Shown: piece by piece, positions 250 through 29,458 of the stretch
Layout of the letters: each line of letters opens with the position of its first letter
How positions within the stretch are numbered: the first letter of the stretch is position 1
Source of the DNA: a virus
Strand: one strand, 5' to 3'
Length of the DNA: 33,686 bases
Virus record (IMG/VR): IMGVR_UViG_3300031656_000017
Location: 1-33,686 of that record
The notes under the pieces: generated by a model
Databases searched by the model: none
Seen by the model: only the letters and a program-made list of their open reading frames with translations
Told to the model about the DNA's origin: nothing
Translations under genes and position numbers: made by a program

Positions 250-402
250 TTATTTTTTTTTAAGTTTTACCCATTTTGTTACTGTGTATCCAATGGTTAC
301 AAGAAGCAAAGTAATTTTTAACCAAGTTTCTATATGACCAAAGGTTGTTATTCCAACAACTCCGAAACTCATTGCATACATTTTAATATCCGATATACTC
401 AT
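250..402 (-). CDS. 50-aa single-span membrane protein, possible holin or spanin-like
   Basis: This short ORF has an ATG at 402 overlapping the TAA stop of the giant gene (TAATG), a layout suggesting translational coupling. The 50 residues hold one clear hydrophobic segment at about residues 27-42 (L-K-I-T-L-L-L-V-T-I-G-Y), with a second weakly hydrophobic stretch at about 12-21. A strongly basic tail (K-L-K-K-K) follows, as expected for a cytoplasmic anchor. Small one- or two-span proteins with charged tails next to virion genes are often lysis proteins, but a virion membrane role is also possible. A better holin candidate lies at 29462-29860. The reading frame is well supported; the function is inferred from size, hydrophobicity and position. 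Confidence 0.65.
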   Translation of the reverse strand: MSISDIKMYAMSFGVVGITTFGHIETWLKITLLLVTIGYTVTKWVKLKKK

Positions 403-3400
403 TATTTGTTTTTAGGCATTAGTTCTAATATTTTATTTACTCTGTTTTTTTCGTATTGTAAAGCTCTTATTTGTTTTTTAGTTAAACCATATTTAAGTAA
501 TGTTTTTACTTGGTCAGGTTTGTTTTCATCTTTAATAGAATCAAATTGTCTTCTAAGCCTTCTTTCAGCACTTTCGTTTTTAGGTTTTGCTTTTACTTTA
601 GGTGTTGGTTTAGTTTCTTCTTTTATTTCTTCTTTAACTTTAACTTCTTCTTTAGGATTAGCTTCTGCATTTTGCAGCTCTATAATTTTTTCAACTCTAA
701 CTTGTTCTTTACCTAAAGCTTTTATTTCTTTTTTAGTTAATCCTAAATCTAATAACATATCAATTTGCTCTTTAGTTTTAGTAAGCTTTTTCATGTCATC
801 AATTTCTTTTACTTTTTCTTCCTCAGGCGTTAATACTTTAGCTGCATCAAATCCTCCGTAATAACCTAAACCTACATCCCAAGTAGACCAACCAAGACCT
901 AAAGCAACTTTTTGCCAAAGAGAAGACTGTTCGCTTACAATACCTCGCATGCTATTTAGCTTTTTAATAACTCTATCCAGCGGAATATTAGTAAGACCGG
1001 TTGTTATTTGAGCACCTGCTAAATAAGCTGGGTTATCTAAACTTAAACCTTTGTTTTTAATGTCTTTCATGTTCCAGCTAAAGCTTCTAAGCCCACCGTT
1101 TATTTTTTGTATTTTAGAACCAAGTGGTGGTGAAAAACCTAATAAATCAAATACAGCCTCTTCATACGCAGGACGATTCTTAGCATGCTGCTTACCTAAT
1201 TCCATCAAAGCACTTTTTATTGCAACTACTGCTGCTCCACCTATGCCTAATCCTTTTAATTGTGAATCAATCATACCGTTAGCTATTCTTGAAATCTTTT
1301 CGCTTTTCTTAGCGTCTTGTTGTTCTTCATCTTCATCTTCACCAAATCCTAAAGCAAATACAGCTTGTTGCAATGCATTAAATATTAAATTTTGCACCGC
1401 CCCGTAATAAACAATTTTAGATACATTTGTTTTCCAATCACCTCTGCCATTTGCAATATCCTGCGCTGCTCTTTTTTGTATACGAGCATACTGCATTGGT
1501 GTATTTGCCCAAGCTAATATAACACGACCTGCTCCAGATGCTTGTTGTTGGCTAATTCTATTCGGATTACTTGATTGCTGACTTTCTTCTGCTATTTGTC
1601 TAAAATCTTCAAAAGCTTGTGCTTCTGCAGCCTTTTGTTCCATCCCTTTAGCAACTAAAGCTTTTACTCTGTTTCTATAAAATGTAGAACCACCTGTTGC
1701 AATAGCAAAACTATCTGCAAATCTAGTCATAACAAAACCTTTACTTAGTAAAAACGCTATAGCTGATTTAACTTTGTTATTTGAATCTCTCACAGCATCT
1801 GCAATTTCAGATTCACTTACATTAATCTTAAGGCCATTTCTACGTTCAACTAAATAGTCAGAGTTCATTAGCGTCATGAAGTCACCCCAAAATTGTTTTT
1901 GATTTGCAAATGCTGCACCTGCTTTAACTATATTATTATCACCCCAGTTTATAAAGTTTACCGCAGATATAGTTTGTAAAAGCGCAGAACGCGTGTTTAA
2001 GAACATTACAGCACCCACAGAATTGTTTAGCCAATCTAATATGCCGTCTGTTACACTGTTCCCGCCTGGCGGCCTGTTGCTTCCAGACTTCATTCTACGT
2101 ATAGAATCTTCTAAAGCATTACGCCATCTAGTTCCATACGCAGCTTCCATTTTATTTAAATTATCTTCAGAAAATATAATATTAATGTTTTCTCTCCATT
2201 CTTGCTGATATTCAGCTCTGTTAACTTTATTAATATCATTTATAATATCACCAGTAATGTTGCCGCCTAACCAGCTTTTGCCTGGTTTTGGATATGGTTT
2301 ACCTTTTTGAATTTTCATTAACTCATCAGTAAAAACGCTAAGCTCAGCATTGTTATCTACAAAATCGTTTAATTCTTTTATATCTTTTTTAGATAACCCG
2401 GGTATATCCATACCTTGTTTTGACCACACGGCTACACGAACGGCATGCGAAAATGTAAATCCTCCTATACCTGTTGGTTTACTTAAACTTTTAGGTAAAG
2501 TTTTTAAGTTTTGTTTTAATGCTTTAAAATCATTTGCCGCAGCTATCTTAGCTTGCGTTACAGCCGACTCAGCTCTATCATAAGGATCAAGTAAGTTTGT
2601 TTTAAGAAATGCCATTTGAGCATCACCTTTTTTGCCTTTACCTAACATTTTATATAACAAACCTGTAAAGTCTTCAGCGCTTGCGGGAATAAAGAAATTA
2701 AATCGACCTTTACTAGCGCCCACTGTTTGAGCTCTCGCAGCAGAATATTGTTTATATGTTTCAATTCCAGAAGAATCTTCAATCATATCATTTACGATAG
2801 TATCAAAAGTTTCTAGTTTGCTTTCTTTTGCCAATTGAACTTTAGATTTAACATCAATTTGACTAAGCACATTTTTTACAGCTTGTACATTTTTAATTGC
2901 ATCATCTGCAAAGTAAAAATCATTATAGCCTTCTGCGGCTTTACCCATTATCCAGCCAGCTTTTGCTTCAGCTGTACCGTCACCTAGACCTGTTATGTTT
3001 TTTAAAGGTATATTAATACCGTTTGCTTCCATAAAAGCTTTTATAGGACCATCAGCATTTTGAGGCCTTGCTGTAAGTATAAATACATCTTCAGTTCCTC
3101 TAGCATCTGCTATTTTTTGAGCAACTTCAAACAAAGGACCTTTTTTGCCTTCGACAACTTTGCTAAATTGTGTAAAATCAAACTCAGCACCTTGAGACTC
3201 AAGATTTGAGGCTTGTTGAGCAAATTGCGTAGCATTTATTTGATTAGTAGAACCGTCAGGCATATTAACAATAACCATGCTTTTCGACTTTGCAAGTGTA
3301 TCATCAAAATCAAACACTCTAATTTTTTTAACAGGAGCGTTTAGTTTTCTAGCATTGTTTAAAGCTTTATCAGTTTTTTCTAATGCGTTTACAGCTTTTT

Positions 3401-6400
3401 GTACAGTTATAGGATTGTTATATTTTATATCATTTGGTATTAAATCGCTATCAAGTTTAGAAGCCATTGATTTTCCTTCCACCAAAGGTAATGCCGATTT
3501 AATAACTTTTGCTGCATTATAATCAGAGTTCTCTATAGTTCTTAATATGGCTTCGTTTTGAATATTAGAAGCTTGTACTTTTTCATTAGCATTATATCCA
3601 TCATATATTTTTGGATCAATACCAAATCCGCTTTCTTCAGCAATTGTTTTTCCTGTGTCAGGATTTTTAAGTGTGTTTAAATCAATTCCTGCAGCGGCAA
3701 GTCTTGTTATAGGGTTATTAAATATACTTTGACCTTCTGCTAATGTAGAATCTAATTTAGCCTGGTCTAATAAATCATCATCAAATTTAGAAAGTTGTGT
3801 TTGATAATAATTTTCTTTTATAGCCTCCATTGTAGGAATAGCAGCATTATTTTTAATAGCTAAAAGTATAGATGCTCCAACTACCGAGGCAGGTGGATTA
3901 TGCTCTTCTCTATATTTTTTACCTTCTCTTTGCTGTTTTTTTGAATTAATACCTCCATATCTCATTTCAATTGAGCGATACTTAAATTGTGCAGATATTT
4001 TTACTAAACCTGTAGTAGCTTGATAACTCTGTATAATAATAGCAGCGCCTATATCTAATGACATACCGCCTGCAACGGCATCGGTAAGTTGATTAACTAC
4101 ATGATCTAAAACTACCATATTATCTTTAGCTCTTTGCGCAGCTAATTCTCTAACTTTTTTATTTTTAGAAAAAGCTTGAATAGGCGATACTCGCATAGCT
4201 TTAGGGCCATTGTAAGAGTTAGCACTTTTTATTAGTTTTTTGTAAGCGGGATCACTTTTGCCGTAATATAACCTACCAGGTTTAGCAACCCAGTTTGTTA
4301 TGCCTTTAGTTGTAATCTCAACAAATTTTCCGTCTTTTGTTTTTCCAAACTTAATAGGTTTTTTTATTCCACCTTCAAAAGCTTGCTTAGCAGAAGAATA
4401 CATTTTTCCTCCTTTAACACCATAAAAAGTTTGTTTACCACCACTACCCATTTTACCGGCTTCTATAGTAGTAATGTCTAATCCATATTCAACAACAGCT
4501 TTCTGCATAGCGGTTTGCTGAGCCTTTCTATTAGATTCATTTATAGGTGGAGACTTAAAGTCTAAATCCGCTGCTAATTGTTTTTTGTTTTTTAAAACAG
4601 AAACAGCTTTAAATGAGGTTTTTAGCTTAGGAGGCATACTATCGTAACTTTCTAATTTACTAGCCATAGATGCGTTTTTGCCCGCAGCAACATCTTGTTT
4701 GGTTTCTAAGCTTAAATCAGTATCTGATCTTACAATTTCGTTTGTTACAAGTTTTCCGTATAAATTAGCAATGCCTTTTAAAGCCTGCGCTTGAGAAGAC
4801 CTTGCATTAAATCCTTCTTGTTTTTTGCCATCAACGATACCAAATGCTTCCAAAAACTGCGCTTTAGTAATTCCTTTATTTAAAACAAACGGAGCAAGCC
4901 CGGCGCCTTTACCAAGTCTAGCTTTTTTAGTATAAAATGCGTCAAGCAATCCTTTTGGCACGCCTGTAGAGGTACCTAAGAGCTTCTCTGTTGCAGCTTC
5001 TACTACTGCGCCTTGTGGTAATATCTTTAATAGTTTATCAGCGTTCTTATTAACAAATTGCTGTATAGCTGTTGCATCTCCTTTTGATAAATTAGCAGCG
5101 GGTACAGTAAGTTTTTTAACCGGTATACCAATTTCTTCTGCAATAATTTCAGGAGCTAAGTCACCAAGCTTTTTAAACGTTAGATTTTTAGGATCAATGC
5201 CTTCAATCTTTTCTTGCACCTGCTCTTTAATCTTGCCTACAGCATTGTTAGATATAAGAGAGCTAGGTTTTATTTTTCTTTTTACAGGTTTTGGAGTAAC
5301 TTCTGTTGTTATTTCTTCAGCCATTACGCCTTTAGCCTCCGTAACATCGGTTGTAAATTCTTCTCCTAAAACTCTTTGGGAAGCTTCTATAGCTCTAGCT
5401 GGTAAAAATTTGTTTATATAAGCAGCTAATGGAACACCTGATTCAGGTTTGTACTCTTTAATTAAATCAATTATGCCACGCTTACCTGTTTCTATTTCGT
5501 CTGTTAAAAGTTGACGATCAAAATTAGGTGCTTCACTTCTTTTTTCTACTATTTTACTTACTATAGGCTTAAATTGCTCTATAATTTCAAAAGCCCCATC
5601 TTTGCCTTTTGTTTCATAAATAGTTTGCACGTTTTCACTTGCCTTAATATTAGATTCTAGCTTGCTTTCTTTTGCAATTATGTCTTTTGTTTCGGATTCA
5701 ACTTTAGCTAGTTGGTTGTCTATTGATTTGGTTTCACGAGCTCCTTTGGTTCTACCGTCAACCTTTTCGACTATTCCATCAACTAATTTACCTTTTGCTC
5801 CTTCTTTGGCTATCTTAAGCTGAGCTTCATTTAATTTGTTACCAGAGTTAATTGTATCGTTATAGTCTTTTAAAAAATTAAAAACATCTAATCCAGTGTT
5901 AAACTCAATATTTAATGGCTGTTTTTTATTAGATTTAAAAACATTAGATATTTTATCTCTTAACGCTTCGAAAAAGCCTTTTGTTTTTTCATTATAAACA
6001 ATGTCACCATTCGTAATAGCCTCACTAACTAAAGGAATAACTTCCTCATAAGTCATTTCAGCTGAATAATTTTTATCATCTATATAGTCTTGAAGCCTAG
6101 CTCTCATTTTATCTCCGCCTTCAATTTGCTTATTGTTTAATATCTCTGTTATTAAAGACTTGCCAAAAGTTATAGCTAGCTCAGGATTGTTTTGAAATGT
6201 TTGTTTAAAAAATGGATGTAAGAGTTCATGCTGGTCAGTAGTATATTTATTTCGTTCTGCAGCAACTCTGTCATTTATTAATATAATAGTTTCACCGCCA
6301 AACTCAACAGCCTGGCCGTATCCTAATGATTTTTGTACTTTAGCACCCTTATCTGCAAGCTCTTTAACTCTAGCATCGTAAGATTCTTGTGTGCCATAAT

Positions 6401-9050
6401 TTTCAAACTCCGCTCCCAACTGTTCTGCTATTAATCTAGCTCCCTCTCTAGTTTTAGAACTTTCAATATCAATTACTGTGTCTTGTATAACTAATTCTTG
6501 AATTTCTGTTTTTATTTCATTTAACCTAGTTTGATCACCATTACCTTCGGTAATATCAGAGTCATTTATGTCTTTAATTTTTTGCTGAAGTTTATTTTTT
6601 TCTATTAACAATGCAGTTAAAGGGGCTTGACTTTTAAGGTTTACACCAGCTGTATTTAAAGCGTTCGCATTTGATTGAACATCTAAAAAGTTTTGCTTAA
6701 TTACATCAGCCTCTCCTTGAGTTATGCTGCCGTTGTTTACTTCTGCTTTTAATTGTGTGTTTAATAAACTTAAAGATCCATTAACGCTGGCAAGCTTAAC
6801 AGAAGTGTCAGATACATTAATATCGCTAAAAGCAGTGTACATAGCATCTACTCCAGAATCATCTAATATGGTGTTAACTCTTCTATTAGTTGCTGATTGA
6901 TTTAAGTAAGATCGCCCAGCCCCAACACTTGATAGTTTTGCTCCAAATGCTCCACCAATTAAAAATGTGTCAAATCCTTCTGCAAACTTTTTATTAAAAT
7001 CTATTTCTTTTCCTGTGTATAAATATTCAGCTAATTCATTAAGAACAAATGTTCCTGTTTCTGACCCGCCTTCCATTCCAAACGCTTTACCTATATCTCC
7101 AAAATAATTTGCTATCCCTTTAAAAGAATCATCTAAATTTTTAGGCTTAAAACCAAAAGCTTTTTTAGCTAACCCTCTAGTTACAATTTCTAAAGCACCT
7201 TCCGATAAGCCAATCATTAAAGAATAACCAGAAAGAGCTAAGCTTAAATCATCACCCTCTTTTTGTTTATCTCTACTAGCAGAGGAGGCTTCTCCTACTA
7301 TTAACAAAGGAATACCAATAATAGGTATTGACACCTCAATTAGACTAGTAGCTGAACTTAAAGCATCTGTAGATAATCGCGTCATTTGACTTACAAAATC
7401 TCTTTGAAAAGCTCCTTCGGTAATGGTTTGATCAAAAGTACGCATAGTAGAATTTATATTATCTACTTCGTCATACATTTTTTCTGATATATCTAATAGG
7501 TAATTAGCTATATCTCCAGAGGGAAGGCCAAATTTAGAAGCCATCTTATTTATAACTTTAGCTCTTTGCTCATAAGGCAATGCATTTACTGCTGCTAATG
7601 TTTTATCGTCAAAAGCAATAGTAGCTATTTGCTGATTTACCCAGCTAGGTATACCAAGCACCTTGCCCCCTATGCGAGTTAAACCCGCTTCAAAGCTTTT
7701 TCCTAAACGCGGAGCAAATTCAAGACGTTTGGCGTTTTCTTTATTTTTATTTGTAATAGCAAGTACTGTGTTAAACGGATCTTGCGCTGCACTAAGTGTG
7801 TAATCTTCAGCAGTTAATTCCATAACCGACTTAGCGTCTTTGCCTGTTCTTATTTTATAGTTATTAAAAGCTTGTTGCTGATTTGCTTTAGGTATTTTTT
7901 GCTGTTCTCCTTGTATGTAAAAACCACCGCCTTTTTGCCCATTGCTTGCCGTAAAGCTTTCTACATAAAAAGCTTCCTCAGAAACATTTTTTAAAGTACC
8001 ATCATCTTTACGTAAATTTTGCATTTCAATAATTTCCGCATTGCTTGGAGAATTATCTATTATTTGCTGATATTGGTAATCTGATGCTAAGCTATTTCTA
8101 GTTTTAATTAAGCTGTTAAAAAAATTTGCTTCTTCTTCAGTATAAATAATTGGCTTACCTTCTTTGTCAAATTCAAAATCATTTTTAATAATTTTATCAT
8201 ATTTTTCTATTTGAACTTCCAAAGGAACCGGTTTGTATCCAGCGCGATAAGGCCCTACGTAGGGATTATTATCTATTACTATTTCACCATCAGCTTTTTT
8301 GATCCATATATTTGGATCATCACCTTCGGTAATAGGCTCATCCATAGGTATAACTGAAGGCACTAATGTGTCGTCCTTAAGTTTACTATTTAATTTTGTA
8401 ATTTCAGCGTTTCTTTTTTCTTGTTTGCGTAATTGTTTTTTATATAACTTTAATGCTTTTTCTTGATCTTCACTTGCATGACCTAATTCTACCTGTATGC
8501 TAGCAATAGAAAGGTTATTTGTTTCTTTTTTCCATTTATCTGTACCTTCTTTTTTTTGATAATATTCTAAATTATTATCTTCACCAACATTCCATTTAAA
8601 ATCGTAAGTGTTAGCATTGTAAGTTTCATTTTTAGAAACAACATTACTCAATTTTGTTTGTTGATCGTCGTAAGCCTTTTTTTGTTCTTGTTGTTTTTTA
8701 AAAGATTTTAAAAATTCACTTTCTTGAAATAAAGATTCTCCATCCCCAAAATTGAATTTCTCGGACATAACCGGTGTAGCTAGTGCATTGTCCTGTGCAG
8801 CAGCATTTTTCTTTTTTTCGTTTACTTTTTCAGCGGCACCTTTAGTTTCTTTAGAAAAAGAATCTACATTTAAAGATCCATCTTCATTAAATTTAGAAGG
8901 CTTTACTTCTTCAACAGCTTTTTCAGCGATTCCATCAACAATTTTTTGAGCAGACTGATCATTTTTATTTTTCCAAGCTTTAGTTAAAGCAATCTTTTCT
9001 GATAAAGATATATCGGAACTTAATGTTTGTACATATTCTAGTAATGTCAT
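402..9050 (-). CDS. Giant (2882 aa) virion/ejection-type polyprotein with HExxH and HAD-like motifs
   Basis: This gene fills about a quarter of the window. It is the kind of very large protein that podoviruses package and eject with the DNA. Visible landmarks are as follows. A hydrophobic stretch lies near residue 575. A zinc-peptidase-type H-E-L-L-H is at about 941-945, with acidic candidates for a third ligand at about 998-1003. A HAD-type phosphatase signature has D-F-D-D-T at 1914-1918, L-T-A-R-P near 1992-1996 and A-D-D at 2048-2050. An amphipathic, Ala/Gly-rich region follows at about 2400-2750, then a Lys/Glu-rich tail with two copies of a 28-residue repeat at the extreme C-terminus. 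It lies downstream of a small Ala/Gln-rich internal-protein candidate and a 366-aa unknown, which supports an internal virion role. I saw no lysozyme motif and no convincing N4-type RNA polymerase motif. Enzyme activities are predicted from motifs only. Confidence 0.85.
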   Translation of the reverse strand: MTLLEYVQTLSSDISLSEKIALTKAWKNKNDQSAQKIVDGIAEKAVEEVKPSKFNEDGSLNVDSFSKETKGAAEKVNEKKKNAAAQDNALATPVMSEKFNFGDGESLFQESEFLKSFKKQQEQKKAYDDQQTKLSNVVSKNETYNANTYDFKWNVGEDNNLEYYQKKEGTDKWKKETNNLSIASIQVELGHASEDQEKALKLYKKQLRKQEKRNAEITKLNSKLKDDTLVPSVIPMDEPITEGDDPNIWIKKADGEIVIDNNPYVGPYRAGYKPVPLEVQIEKYDKIIKNDFEFDKEGKPIIYTEEEANFFNSLIKTRNSLASDYQYQQIIDNSPSNAEIIEMQNLRKDDGTLKNVSEEAFYVESFTASNGQKGGGFYIQGEQQKIPKANQQQAFNNYKIRTGKDAKSVMELTAEDYTLSAAQDPFNTVLAITNKNKENAKRLEFAPRLGKSFEAGLTRIGGKVLGIPSWVNQQIATIAFDDKTLAAVNALPYEQRAKVINKMASKFGLPSGDIANYLLDISEKMYDEVDNINSTMRTFDQTITEGAFQRDFVSQMTRLSTDALSSATSLIEVSIPIIGIPLLIVGEASSASRDKQKEGDDLSLALSGYSLMIGLSEGALEIVTRGLAKKAFGFKPKNLDDSFKGIANYFGDIGKAFGMEGGSETGTFVLNELAEYLYTGKEIDFNKKFAEGFDTFLIGGAFGAKLSSVGAGRSYLNQSATNRRVNTILDDSGVDAMYTAFSDINVSDTSVKLASVNGSLSLLNTQLKAEVNNGSITQGEADVIKQNFLDVQSNANALNTAGVNLKSQAPLTALLIEKNKLQQKIKDINDSDITEGNGDQTRLNEIKTEIQELVIQDTVIDIESSKTREGARLIAEQLGAEFENYGTQESYDARVKELADKGAKVQKSLGYGQAVEFGGETIILINDRVAAERNKYTTDQHELLHPFFKQTFQNNPELAITFGKSLITEILNNKQIEGGDKMRARLQDYIDDKNYSAEMTYEEVIPLVSEAITNGDIVYNEKTKGFFEALRDKISNVFKSNKKQPLNIEFNTGLDVFNFLKDYNDTINSGNKLNEAQLKIAKEGAKGKLVDGIVEKVDGRTKGARETKSIDNQLAKVESETKDIIAKESKLESNIKASENVQTIYETKGKDGAFEIIEQFKPIVSKIVEKRSEAPNFDRQLLTDEIETGKRGIIDLIKEYKPESGVPLAAYINKFLPARAIEASQRVLGEEFTTDVTEAKGVMAEEITTEVTPKPVKRKIKPSSLISNNAVGKIKEQVQEKIEGIDPKNLTFKKLGDLAPEIIAEEIGIPVKKLTVPAANLSKGDATAIQQFVNKNADKLLKILPQGAVVEAATEKLLGTSTGVPKGLLDAFYTKKARLGKGAGLAPFVLNKGITKAQFLEAFGIVDGKKQEGFNARSSQAQALKGIANLYGKLVTNEIVRSDTDLSLETKQDVAAGKNASMASKLESYDSMPPKLKTSFKAVSVLKNKKQLAADLDFKSPPINESNRKAQQTAMQKAVVEYGLDITTIEAGKMGSGGKQTFYGVKGGKMYSSAKQAFEGGIKKPIKFGKTKDGKFVEITTKGITNWVAKPGRLYYGKSDPAYKKLIKSANSYNGPKAMRVSPIQAFSKNKKVRELAAQRAKDNMVVLDHVVNQLTDAVAGGMSLDIGAAIIIQSYQATTGLVKISAQFKYRSIEMRYGGINSKKQQREGKKYREEHNPPASVVGASILLAIKNNAAIPTMEAIKENYYQTQLSKFDDDLLDQAKLDSTLAEGQSIFNNPITRLAAAGIDLNTLKNPDTGKTIAEESGFGIDPKIYDGYNANEKVQASNIQNEAILRTIENSDYNAAKVIKSALPLVEGKSMASKLDSDLIPNDIKYNNPITVQKAVNALEKTDKALNNARKLNAPVKKIRVFDFDDTLAKSKSMVIVNMPDGSTNQINATQFAQQASNLESQGAEFDFTQFSKVVEGKKGPLFEVAQKIADARGTEDVFILTARPQNADGPIKAFMEANGINIPLKNITGLGDGTAEAKAGWIMGKAAEGYNDFYFADDAIKNVQAVKNVLSQIDVKSKVQLAKESKLETFDTIVNDMIEDSSGIETYKQYSAARAQTVGASKGRFNFFIPASAEDFTGLLYKMLGKGKKGDAQMAFLKTNLLDPYDRAESAVTQAKIAAANDFKALKQNLKTLPKSLSKPTGIGGFTFSHAVRVAVWSKQGMDIPGLSKKDIKELNDFVDNNAELSVFTDELMKIQKGKPYPKPGKSWLGGNITGDIINDINKVNRAEYQQEWRENINIIFSEDNLNKMEAAYGTRWRNALEDSIRRMKSGSNRPPGGNSVTDGILDWLNNSVGAVMFLNTRSALLQTISAVNFINWGDNNIVKAGAAFANQKQFWGDFMTLMNSDYLVERRNGLKINVSESEIADAVRDSNNKVKSAIAFLLSKGFVMTRFADSFAIATGGSTFYRNRVKALVAKGMEQKAAEAQAFEDFRQIAEESQQSSNPNRISQQQASGAGRVILAWANTPMQYARIQKRAAQDIANGRGDWKTNVSKIVYYGAVQNLIFNALQQAVFALGFGEDEDEEQQDAKKSEKISRIANGMIDSQLKGLGIGGAAVVAIKSALMELGKQHAKNRPAYEEAVFDLLGFSPPLGSKIQKINGGLRSFSWNMKDIKNKGLSLDNPAYLAGAQITTGLTNIPLDRVIKKLNSMRGIVSEQSSLWQKVALGLGWSTWDVGLGYYGGFDAAKVLTPEEEKVKEIDDMKKLTKTKEQIDMLLDLGLTKKEIKALGKEQVRVEKIIELQNAEANPKEEVKVKEEIKEETKPTPKVKAKPKNESAERRLRRQFDSIKDENKPDQVKTLLKYGLTKKQIRALQYEKNRVNKILELMPKNK
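417..500 (-). repeat. C-terminal 28-residue repeat, second copy
   Basis: This is the last of two protein-level repeats at the C-terminus of the giant protein. It encodes L-L-K-Y-G-L-T-K-K-Q-I-R-A-L and then a basic helix ending I-L-E-L-M. Against the copy at 672-755, 17 of 28 residues match by eye. The two are separated by a Lys/Glu/Pro-rich linker. Confidence 0.8.
672..755 (-). repeat. C-terminal 28-residue repeat, first copy
   Basis: The first of the two C-terminal repeats encodes L-L-D-L-G-L-T-K-K-E-I-K-A-L followed by a helix ending I-I-E-L-Q. The pattern G-L-T-K-K-x-I-x-A-L plus R-V-x-K-I suggests a small two-helix module, possibly for packing or binding another virion component. Confidence 0.8.
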
Positions 9051-9055
9051 TTAAT

Positions 9056-10156
9056 TTAATTTAAATTGTTATCATCTAAAAATTTTTGTGCGTCTGCTTT
9101 TTTTGATTCTGATAAATCAAATACAGCAGCATCTTCTTTTACTATAGGTGATTGATTTTTAGTAAATTCATTTAAATAATTATTCATAAAGTATTCTTTA
9201 TATTTATTTTCAAATAAAACTTTTTTATCTTGTTGCAAAGGCAAATCTAATTCATAACTCCAACTAGATCCGCCTGCATTAGCGTTCTGGGCCATTTGGG
9301 CGTCCTCATCAACACTTGTGTCTTTAGATATATAAACGTTCCAAGCAGCTACTACGTCTTGCTCAGAGCTCATTAAACCAGCAACCTCCGCGTTTATAAA
9401 AGGCGTTACTTTTTTTTCAATTTTATTTATATCAAATTTAATAATGTTTTTGCCCATACCATTACCTAAATCTAAAATTTCATAATCATAAGATCCATCA
9501 GGATTTTTTAATATAAATTCTTCACTTATTTTTGCATTAGGTTTTAATTGACTGTTTTCACCAATCATATCAGAATTAAACAAATTAACCTCAGTTAAAA
9601 GTCGCAGCATGTCTTTATCTATATTTGGGGTAGATGCAATTAAAGAAGTATCGGAATCTAATAAAGCTTTTAAAGATGCGCTATTTATAACTAAAGGAAA
9701 ACCAAAAGCTGGCCCCATAAAAGATATTTGCTGAGATCCATCTGGTAATAAATCTAAATAAGCATTATACCCATCTGTTTTAGAAAACCCAGGCTTACCT
9801 GCCATTAAACTATTAGCAACCGTGTATCTGTAATTATTGTTAGGATCAAAATTGGATTCTTCTGTAACACTAAGCTCTGAAATTAATGAAGATAAAAAAT
9901 CTAAAGAAGCTTGCGGGGATTCTTCAAGCATTTTTACACCAGCTAATTCTAATGAGCAATCTTCTGAAATACATTTGTTAGATTCAATGGCTATTTTTAA
10001 ATTAGCATATGTTTTACCTGCATGCCTATAAGCGTTGTCTAGCAATTGAAAATTATAATCACTTGCGTTGGCTACAAATCCTTTACTGTAAGCTATAGCA
10101 TCACTTTGATTAAACTGCTTTAAGTAAAGATTTTGAAATAAATTTTTGTTTTCCAT
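9056..10156 (-). CDS. Unknown protein, probable internal virion/ejection partner (366 aa)
   Basis: The gene lies 5 nt upstream of the giant gene and 20 nt downstream of the 222-aa gene, inside the ejection module. The product is acidic and soluble-looking, without a signal peptide or membrane span. The N-terminal third is predicted helical by eye (F-Q-N-L-Y-L-K-Q-F start). A middle region is rich in Asn/Asp/Gly, and the C-terminus is charged (E-S-K-K-A-D-A-Q-K-F). Two cysteines lie close together in C-I-S-E-D-C near residues 62-67. I do not recognise the family. Its position suggests a virion protein made with the giant, but a chaperone-like or structural role cannot be told apart. The start ATG is preceded by an A-rich leader without a Shine-Dalgarno sequence. 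Confidence 0.75.
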   Translation of the reverse strand: MENKNLFQNLYLKQFNQSDAIAYSKGFVANASDYNFQLLDNAYRHAGKTYANLKIAIESNKCISEDCSLELAGVKMLEESPQASLDFLSSLISELSVTEESNFDPNNNYRYTVANSLMAGKPGFSKTDGYNAYLDLLPDGSQQISFMGPAFGFPLVINSASLKALLDSDTSLIASTPNIDKDMLRLLTEVNLFNSDMIGENSQLKPNAKISEEFILKNPDGSYDYEILDLGNGMGKNIIKFDINKIEKKVTPFINAEVAGLMSSEQDVVAAWNVYISKDTSVDEDAQMAQNANAGGSSWSYELDLPLQQDKKVLFENKYKEYFMNNYLNEFTKNQSPIVKEDAAVFDLSESKKADAQKFLDDNNLN

Positions 10157-10176: not shown

Positions 10177-10845
10177 TTAACTTCCGTAATATGCTCCAGC
10201 CATTCCCCCTAAGGATCCAAGCATATTTGTCATTGCACCTGTTTCATCTGCAGCAGCTTGTGCTTCTGCTTGCTTTGACGCTCCTAACATAGCCGCAGTT
10301 CTATCTAATTCTTGCATTTCCCTACCTTCTCTTGTGCTAAACATAAACTGCTCTCCAGCTACATCTGCTTGTTGAAGTCTTTGCGCTTCAGCCATTTGCC
10401 TTTGTTCCATTTGCTGCTCTCCAGCTGCTCGTTTATCTTCGTTAGTTTTTTCTTGTTGCTCAATACTAGCAGCTACTCCTTGTTTAGATTTCAAAGCAGC
10501 CTGTGCTAAAGCTGTTGCGCCGCCGGCACTTGACCCAGTGGCTCTTATAGTATCTAAAGTATTGGCTAAAGATATATCGGCTTGTTCAATTTTCATTTCA
10601 GCTGCGCCTGTGGCTACTGACAAGTTAGCAAAAGGATTACTTATCATGCCCGACAAATCCATTATTCCTTCATAAGGATTAATTATTTCTTGTCTATTGT
10701 TCTCTAATTGATTAAGTTTTGCTTGAAGTCTAGATCTTTCTGCTGCTGCGGCTGCTTCTCTTTTTCTAGCCGAACTAGCACCCATTAGTCCACCTAGAAC
10801 TGACAAACCGCCTCCTATTACTGCTGCTGCTATTGGTATTGGCAT
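10177..10845 (-). CDS. Ala/Gln-rich internal virion (ejection) protein candidate
   Basis: The 222-aa product has a hydrophobic, glycine-rich N-terminus (I-A-A-A-V-I-G-G-G-L-S-V-L-G-G-L) that could insert in a membrane. A long helical Ala/Gln/Glu-rich region follows, with a strongly charged coiled-coil stretch at about residues 125-180 (Q-Q-E-K-T-N-E-D-K-R). It ends in a second Gly/Ala hydrophobic patch (M-L-G-S-L-G-G-M-A-G-A-Y-Y-G). The layout resembles small internal core proteins of short-tailed phages, such as T7 gp14, and similar proteins I recall from marine phages. Its place between the nozzle genes and the giant protein supports a role in forming the ejection channel. The role is inferred, since no enzymatic motif is present. 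Confidence 0.65.
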   Translation of the reverse strand: MPIPIAAAVIGGGLSVLGGLMGASSARKREAAAAAERSRLQAKLNQLENNRQEIINPYEGIMDLSGMISNPFANLSVATGAAEMKIEQADISLANTLDTIRATGSSAGGATALAQAALKSKQGVAASIEQQEKTNEDKRAAGEQQMEQRQMAEAQRLQQADVAGEQFMFSTREGREMQELDRTAAMLGASKQAEAQAAADETGAMTNMLGSLGGMAGAYYGS

Positions 10846-28558: not shown

Positions 28559-29458
28559 TTATTTTAATGCTACTAAATCTGTTGCGGCGTCTGCTGCTGG
28601 GATTATAACATAACTAACTGCCGCTGGTAATATTGTTCCCACTGGAACTGCTTTAAACCTAACAACATCATTTACTCCTGGCAGTAAGCTTTCAACAGAG
28701 CTAACTGCAAATTTACAATCATCCACGTGACCAGTTTGATTTACTGTTATAATATCTCCTACAGAATAGTTAGATCCTGCATTTCGTATTTTAGGAAATT
28801 TAAATGAAGCAAGTGTTACAGCCCCATTTCTAGCTACGGCTATAGTAAGCTCTGCGCTTGTACCGCCTGTAGAAATAACAGTAACTACATCTCCTGCGCT
28901 ATAGCCTGATCCGCCTCTTGTTATAGTAACATCATCTATAGGTCCTGTTGCACCACCTCCTGTGATTGACTCAATTGTGCCAATTAAACCCGTTCCCCCA
29001 GCTGGAACTACAGTAGTTGTAAAAGCATTTCCTGCAGTATATCCTGAGCCAGCTTCAGTTACATCAACCCCCGGTAAATCCGCTATTATATCTACTGTTA
29101 AACCTGCAGGCACAGTAGCGGGTGAATTAGGTACGGCAGTTACAACTGTTGTTGCTACGTCATTTTGTGTAAAATATCCCGATCCCGCTACAAAATTAGC
29201 AGGAGAAGGATTAGCTCCTCTGAATATTGTTTCAAAATTAAAACCAGTTACCGTGTCTTGAGCTCCTGTAACGCCTGCTAGTATAACATCTACGTTTCCT
29301 TCACCCCCAACGTATAGTTGTGATCCTGTATAATTATTACCTAAGGTTGTTTGATTTTCGAACTCCCAAGCAGATCTTGCATCTAGAGCGCCGATAGCTA
29401 CTGGTGTAACCGCTAAAGCTTTGCCGAATGTTCCGGCTGTTATTGAGTATTGTCCCAT
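28559..29458 (-). CDS. Spike-base/decoration-like protein with four internal repeats (299 aa)
   Basis: The outer parts resemble small spike-base or head-decoration proteins. An L-Y-V-G-G-E-G-N-V-D-V strand lies at about residues 48-58, and V-P-V-G-T-I-L-P-A-A-V at about 271-281, ending D-L-V-A-L. In the known small forms these two parts lie close together. Here they are separated by about 200 residues with four repeats starting A-G-S-G-Y or a close variant at 91, 136, 182 and 227. This gives a period of about 45 residues. The repeats read G-S-G-Y-x-x-G-D-x-V-T-V and are rich in Gly/Thr/Val, so a stacked beta fold is likely. The protein probably sits on the outside of the virion. It follows a 3TM-type holin candidate and precedes the coiled-coil gene. 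Confidence 0.6.
   Translation of the reverse strand: MGQYSITAGTFGKALAVTPVAIGALDARSAWEFENQTTLGNNYTGSQLYVGGEGNVDVILAGVTGAQDTVTGFNFETIFRGANPSPANFVAGSGYFTQNDVATTVVTAVPNSPATVPAGLTVDIIADLPGVDVTEAGSGYTAGNAFTTTVVPAGGTGLIGTIESITGGGATGPIDDVTITRGGSGYSAGDVVTVISTGGTSAELTIAVARNGAVTLASFKFPKIRNAGSNYSVGDIITVNQTGHVDDCKFAVSSVESLLPGVNDVVRFKAVPVGTILPAAVSYVIIPAADAATDLVALK

Follow-up and report, generated by a model that had tools for sequence, protein, structure and literature searches.

A giant virion-module protein of an uncultured marine phage with predicted zincin metallopeptidase and HAD phosphatase domains

Background

Among the described systems closest to the gene analysed here are the T7 ejection set, whose gp16 carries a transglycosylase, and the polyvalent proteins of phages and plasmids. 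As set out in the main text of Iyer, Burroughs and Aravind (2017, PMC5512222), polyvalent proteins are giant multidomain chains that are predicted to be injected, and a zincin domain is proposed to process them; the same text ties the peptidase of the phage N4 RNA polymerase to the zincin superfamily (Iyer et al. 2017, PMC5512222).

We analysed a linear virus fragment of 33,686 bases (the window), whose large genes all lie on the minus strand. For its largest gene the original prediction had proposed a protein delivered into the cell that combines a zinc peptidase with a HAD phosphatase and acts on host envelope, nucleotides or signalling. In the literature searched we found no earlier description of the HAD/kinase family to which this protein belongs.

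Results

The giant gene and its neighbours

According to the listing of open reading frames, 402-9050 of the minus strand encodes an uninterrupted chain of 2882 residues, while the plus strand has many stops across the same span. The single chain with HELLH, DFDDT, TARP and ADD that had been predicted is thus real, each motif being located by residue, and its strand is minus. The 49,998-base contig L002/G001 carries an identical giant. The virion module comprises the following genes.

27231-24997, minus strand: terminase large subunit (from homologs)
24996-22609, minus strand: portal (from homologs)
Between portal and major capsid-type protein, minus strand: gene of 394 aa
21376-19901, minus strand: major capsid-type protein (from homologs)
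10177..10845, minus strand: Ala-rich gene of 222 aa in the position of phi40:1 gp099, a virion protein by MS/MS (synteny)
9056..10156, minus strand: gene of 366 aa in the position of phi40:1 gp100, a virion protein by MS/MS (synteny)
402..9050, minus strand: giant virion/ejection gene of 2882 aa, the final gene of the module (open reading frame; order of terminase, portal and capsid homologs; MS/MS-detected giants in the same position in phi40:1 and phi18:3)

Along the minus strand the order is terminase, portal, the 394-aa gene, the capsid-type protein, further virion structural families, the 222-aa gene, the 366-aa gene and the giant, which accordingly sits in the virion-gene neighbourhood typical of polyvalent proteins. 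The terminase, portal and capsid proteins match podoviruses of Flavobacterium, Cellulophaga and Maribacter as well as one spring-water genome, and the terminase and portal also match Tenacibaculum phages. Because these matches are to podoviruses of flavobacteria, the host of this uncultured marine phage is probably a flavobacterium. Elsewhere in the window, 28559-29458 (minus strand) encodes a 299-aa protein with GSGYxxGD-like repeats, perhaps a surface or fibre protein.

A place in the phage particle

A giant gene in the same position is present in every isolated relative examined. The phi40:1 records (gp097-gp101) state structural proteins identified by experimental MS/MS, and in the phi18:3 records gp123 is among the proteins stated to be structural by experimental MS/MS. 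Two features lie in the N-terminal third of the window giant.

6921..7733, minus strand: segment common to the giants of isolated Flavobacteriia podoviruses, residues ~440-710 (profile scores)
7278..7355, minus strand: hydrophobic stretch and possible membrane segment, residues ~566-591 (Kyte-Doolittle over 19 residues, up to 2.06), the only strong one in the chain

A profile of residues 440-710 scored 95.5 bits against Panino, 35.9 against elemo, 22.3 against phi38:1 gp101 and 20.8 against phi13:2 gp127, and it also found the MS/MS-detected giants of phi40:1 (22.3 bits) and phi18:3 (19.2 bits); the best of 205 decoys reached 6.4. The N-terminal third of the window giant is therefore homologous to virion proteins found experimentally, and, given that these giants occupy the same position, packaging of the 2882-aa protein in the particle is well supported by homology and synteny. 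The giants of the isolated phages lack the HAD domain, the C-terminal block and the kinase described below, so the MS/MS evidence covers relatives that share the 440-710 segment. The giant of Maribacter phage Panino (L024:35435-40924) is annotated as a tRNA methyltransferase and yet gives a strong 440-710 match; that name is probably wrong or covers just one domain.

Together with the two neighbouring genes before it, the giant appears to stand where a T7-like phage has its ejection set, with the giant last, and the resemblance of this layout to such a set suggests that it enters the host. Of the predicted delivery into the cell, the packaging part therefore stands through homology and synteny, whereas host entry is a sound inference from gene order. 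Comparison of the 366-aa gene with phi40:1 gp100 gave no significant sequence match, that of the 222-aa gene with gp099 gave none at all, and the 222-aa gene is T7 gp14-like by position alone.

A predicted gluzincin domain

The zinc-peptidase signature lies in the following domain.

5751..6473, minus strand: zincin-like metallopeptidase domain, residues 860-1100 (AF2, Foldseek, invariant HExxH and E)
6216..6230, minus strand: HELLH, residues 941-945 (invariant columns)
6042..6044, minus strand: E1003, which probably supplies the third zinc ligand, 57 residues past the second histidine (invariant in both sets of relatives, 19 and 92)

In an alignment of 19 relatives (residues 750-1480), whose columns average 30% identity, full invariance was confined to H941, E942, H945 and E1003, and the same four were the sole 100% columns among 92 relatives. 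The signature at 941 is thus borne out, and it is joined by E1003, which the earlier reading had missed; an HExxH with a downstream glutamate ligand is the arrangement of gluzincins. The spacing from the second histidine to the glutamate ranges from 45 to 85 among relatives (median 57). HExxH arose in 5 of 5000 shuffles of the giant, a chain with just 7 histidines. In the AF2 model (pLDDT 77.5, pTM 0.78) HELLH lies within a single helix; two strands follow, and then a helix that holds E1003. The Foldseek matches are weak, the sensible ones near the top being gluzincins, placed second and fourth (best E 0.064, probability 0.77); a profile of the zinc region found no real match among PDB sequences. 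From the motif and the model, residues 860-1100 are predicted to be a gluzincin metallopeptidase, better read as a processing protease.

An exact HExxH is present in 89 of the 92 relatives, and the remaining 3 rows have an added residue between the histidines. These longer motifs (HEKAGH in L015, HEITGH in L147, HEFIGH in L161) may mark inactivated proteases. As a detectable zincin match is missing in 24 of 116 giants and three rows are degenerate, the protease seems not to be essential in all giants. The giant of MW202828 (L028:42-11621; 3859 aa) was misleadingly named 'reticulocyte binding/rhoptry protein' by automatic annotation. It has HExxH twice, both times in zincin-like surroundings; the second site scores near decoy level and is not claimed.

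A HAD phosphatase with a variable cap

The second hydrolase domain and its motifs are listed below.

2826..3338, minus strand: HAD phosphatase domain in short-cap form, residues ~1905-2075 (AF2, Foldseek, PHROG 415, Pfam in relatives)
3297..3311, minus strand: motif I DFDDT, residues 1914-1918 (conservation)
3063..3074, minus strand: motif II TARP, residues 1993-1996 (conservation)
2961..2963, minus strand: motif III K2030 (invariant in 116 relatives)
2901..2909, minus strand: motif IV ADD, residues 2048-2050 (conservation)
3258..3263, minus strand: cap site, about residues 1930-1931, occupied in relatives by 46 inserted aa or by a P-loop kinase of ~200 aa (alignment)

The DxDxT, T/S, K and DD elements occur in that order, and D1914, D1916, T1918, T1993, K2030, D2049 and D2050 are invariant in 18 relatives. 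Across 116 giants the motif I aspartate, TAR, K2030 and DD are invariant; part of this set was collected with patterns spanning motif I and GYNDFYF beside motif IV, TAR and K lie outside all collection patterns, and the C-terminal collection used other peptides. A loose four-motif pattern arises in 97 of 5000 shuffles of the giant, and we therefore base the HAD call mainly on conservation. The AF2 model (pLDDT 75.8; the remaining four models 51-59) agrees with the predicted signature: it shows a Rossmannoid core with motifs I, II and IV at the ends of strands E30-35, E110-114 and E165-170. With two separate hydrolase domains that have full catalytic sets in one chain, the multi-enzyme nature of the protein is upheld, and zincin and HAD together provide the several unrelated enzyme domains of a polyvalent protein.

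Fold searches with this model returned HAD enzymes at modest scores (PDB TM-scores <0.5); the viral models gave an unnamed protein (51% identity, E 2e-21) and a PNKP phosphatase-domain protein (2e-4). PHROG 415, 'polynucleotide kinase', matches 7 of the 18 relatives (best 4.3e-6) and the window protein at 9.2e-4; Pfam gave DUF2608 in 7 relatives and Hydrolase in 2. No real match came from PDB sequence searches with the single HAD or its profile, and tblastn of the HAD against isolated phages returned nothing. Metagenome-assembled genomes also encode small HAD proteins that are related to this domain but stand alone (L190:9992-10561, L191:1705-2247, L192:2988-3767); these are possible sources of it.

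The cap between motifs I and II varies among the 116 giants: it is short in 91, has a 46-aa insert in 15 and a kinase in 8, with 2 unscored; the window's own HAD is without kinase. The ~200-aa kinase is of P-loop type with GGPGAGKT and is carried by L015 (10676-11308), L065, L089, L102, L105, L109, L128 and L145. In L015 it matches AAA_33 (3.7e-15), the T4 PseT kinase (1.4e-6 over 157 aa) and the PDB entries 4gp6, 4gp7, 4jst and 4mde (E 3e-4), structures of the Clostridium thermocellum Pnkp kinase domain. When the kinase label is mapped onto a tree built from the C-terminal block, three changes are required, and well-supported branches force at least 2 of them, which places the kinase in about three positions; the kinase has thus moved or been lost repeatedly. 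L185, filed under an Aliivibrio metagenome-assembled genome, carries a partial giant of the kinase-cap type and is probably a misbinned phage fragment.

The PHROG match, together with a kinase of the PNK family in the relatives' HAD cap, argues for a phosphatase of nucleic-acid ends; this is the most likely prediction, and the fold matches also point towards the PNKP group, although direct alignment with the T4 PseT phosphatase is weak. In the kinase-bearing relatives the domain would form a bifunctional end-healing enzyme, with the matching 5'-kinase added inside the cap. An ejected HAD of 5'(3')-nucleotidase type that alters signalling nucleotides or the nucleotide pools of the host directly upon entry seems to us unlikely. 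It would account for the fold, which nucleotidases and PNKP have in common, for lower-ranked fold matches to deoxynucleoside-5'-monophosphatase and 5'(3')-deoxyribonucleotidase, and for the weak alignment of the HAD profile with the T4 PseT phosphatase, essentially over motif I alone. However, the PHROG that the profile matches bears the name polynucleotide kinase, and the recurrent cap partner is a polynucleotide-kinase-family domain rather than a nucleotide enzyme.

If nucleic-acid ends are the substrate, the HAD and kinase might instead repair RNA (tRNA) as a pair that counters anticodon nucleases, like T4 PseT with Rnl1. HAD plus PNK is a known end-healing pair, with T4 PseT/RnlA as precedent, yet we hold this quite improbable since the RNA_ligase family PF09414 was found in none of the 26 related contigs of 50-69 kb, in which its positive controls were detected, and DNA ligase is common there instead. 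The presence of PF01068 in 19 of the 26 contigs against 0 of 26 for PF09414 weakly favours DNA ends over tRNA repair, as the contigs may be incomplete. PF09511 also gave 0 of 26, its controls being silent too.

Conserved and exchangeable parts of the family

Two further regions of the chain differ in their distribution among relatives.

663..2753, minus strand: most conserved part of the family, matching no known family, residues ~2100-2796 (56-92% mean identity per 50-residue block)
5181..5588, minus strand: module that follows the zincin and is exchangeable, present in 39 of 116 relatives, residues ~1155-1290 (sigma-70 region-2-like look)

The C-terminal block is much better conserved than the remainder, whose N-terminal modules vary and swap among relatives; profile searches with the block gave no PDB or Pfam match. 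The 1155-1290 module resembles sigma-70 region 2 in some relatives, an unproven likeness (Sigma70_r2 in just 1 of 23 members, E 0.0018, weak), and it found no match in the PDB. Matches of the c1, c2 and sigma regions to isolates were near decoy level and are not claimed. With the whole giant, Pfam, tblastn against isolated phages and a defence-system library returned nothing. Pattern scans of IMG/VR with two different protein parts confirmed at least 562 and at least 578 relatives; genome assemblies yielded just eight confirmed related stretches, some of them plainly viral fragments. In L018:6761-15741 the C-terminal part of the giant is split into two overlapping frames, by a frameshift or a sequencing error.

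A giant serving merely as channel or scaffold of the ejection core, with zinc and HAD domains left over as structural remnants, is the least probable reading: the isolates' giants lack the HAD, some relatives have no zinc motif or a degenerate one, and the conserved core lies in the 440-710 segment and the C-terminal block, but a zincin region that at 30% identity keeps only its catalytic residues invariant fits catalysis rather than a scaffold, as do HAD catalytic residues invariant in 116 giants.

Discussion

We consider it probable that the giant is a polyvalent internal virion protein of a Flavobacteriia-type podovirus, in which a self-cleaving zincin accompanies a HAD 3'-phosphatase that heals nucleic-acid ends. 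The protein would be packaged in the capsid, as homology indicates, and leave with the DNA. The gluzincin (HExxH and E1003) may cut its own chain, in the head or in the host, and so free the working pieces. The HAD would be catalytically active, a Mg-dependent member of the polynucleotide 3'-phosphatase group, and would regenerate 3'-OH ends, most probably on incoming phage DNA or nicked nucleic acid, enabling phage or host ligase or polymerase to act. In some relatives a matching 5'-kinase in the HAD cap would make the enzyme bifunctional. The envelope or signalling role suggested earlier found no support, and neither did the suggested timing ahead of phage transcription; a processing role suits the zincin better, and the HAD is more plausibly a nucleic-acid-end phosphatase. 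More tentatively, a large undescribed marine phage family (hundreds of IMG/VR contigs) may deliver a cap-cassette HAD 3'-phosphatase that has repeatedly gained a 5'-kinase, is released by the zinc protease and heals ends or breaks of phage DNA before phage gene expression.

If so, the particle would hold an end-repair enzyme active on entry, when the genome is single-copy and open to attack, and the polyvalent-protein catalogue would gain another enzyme class. The family is large and offers clear catalytic residues to test.

Among known systems, T7 gp14/gp15/gp16 show a like order of small, middle and giant gene ending the virion module, although sequence evidence of homology to the three window genes is absent. 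The N4 virion RNA polymerase is also a giant ejected chain for which the main text of PMC5512222 reports a zincin-like domain; a Pfam search of the window giant found no N4-type polymerase domain, and PF00940 was silent in 26 records, as were its controls. The closest isolates are phi40:1 gp101 and phi18:3 gp123 (1691 and 1935 aa), detected in virions, with the same place after the portal/MCP module and the 440-710 segment; no HAD was found in them, and no HExxH in the giants of phi38:1 and phi13:2, their near-identical or close relatives. The 3694-aa structural protein of Flavobacterium phage elemo shares the place, the 440-710 segment and a zincin match with intact HExxH, but differs in having DUF3293 and no HAD. 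T4 PseT (Pnkp) pairs a PNK-family kinase with a HAD phosphatase as the kinase-bearing relatives do; its domains, however, stand in tandem, unlike a kinase nested in the phosphatase cap, it is not a virion giant and its HAD match is weak.

The polyvalent proteins described in PMC5512222 are alike in the giant chain beside virion genes, the zincin-like metallopeptidase, the unrelated enzyme domains and the predicted injection. The main text of that paper holds neither 'haloacid' nor 'phosphatase' and has 'had' three times, the sole use seen being the verb; nor did that main text show a kinase set within a HAD cap or the giant's C-terminal block. The window giant is best read as a member of the polyvalent-protein kind, to which the HAD and the nested cap kinase of its relatives would be new features.
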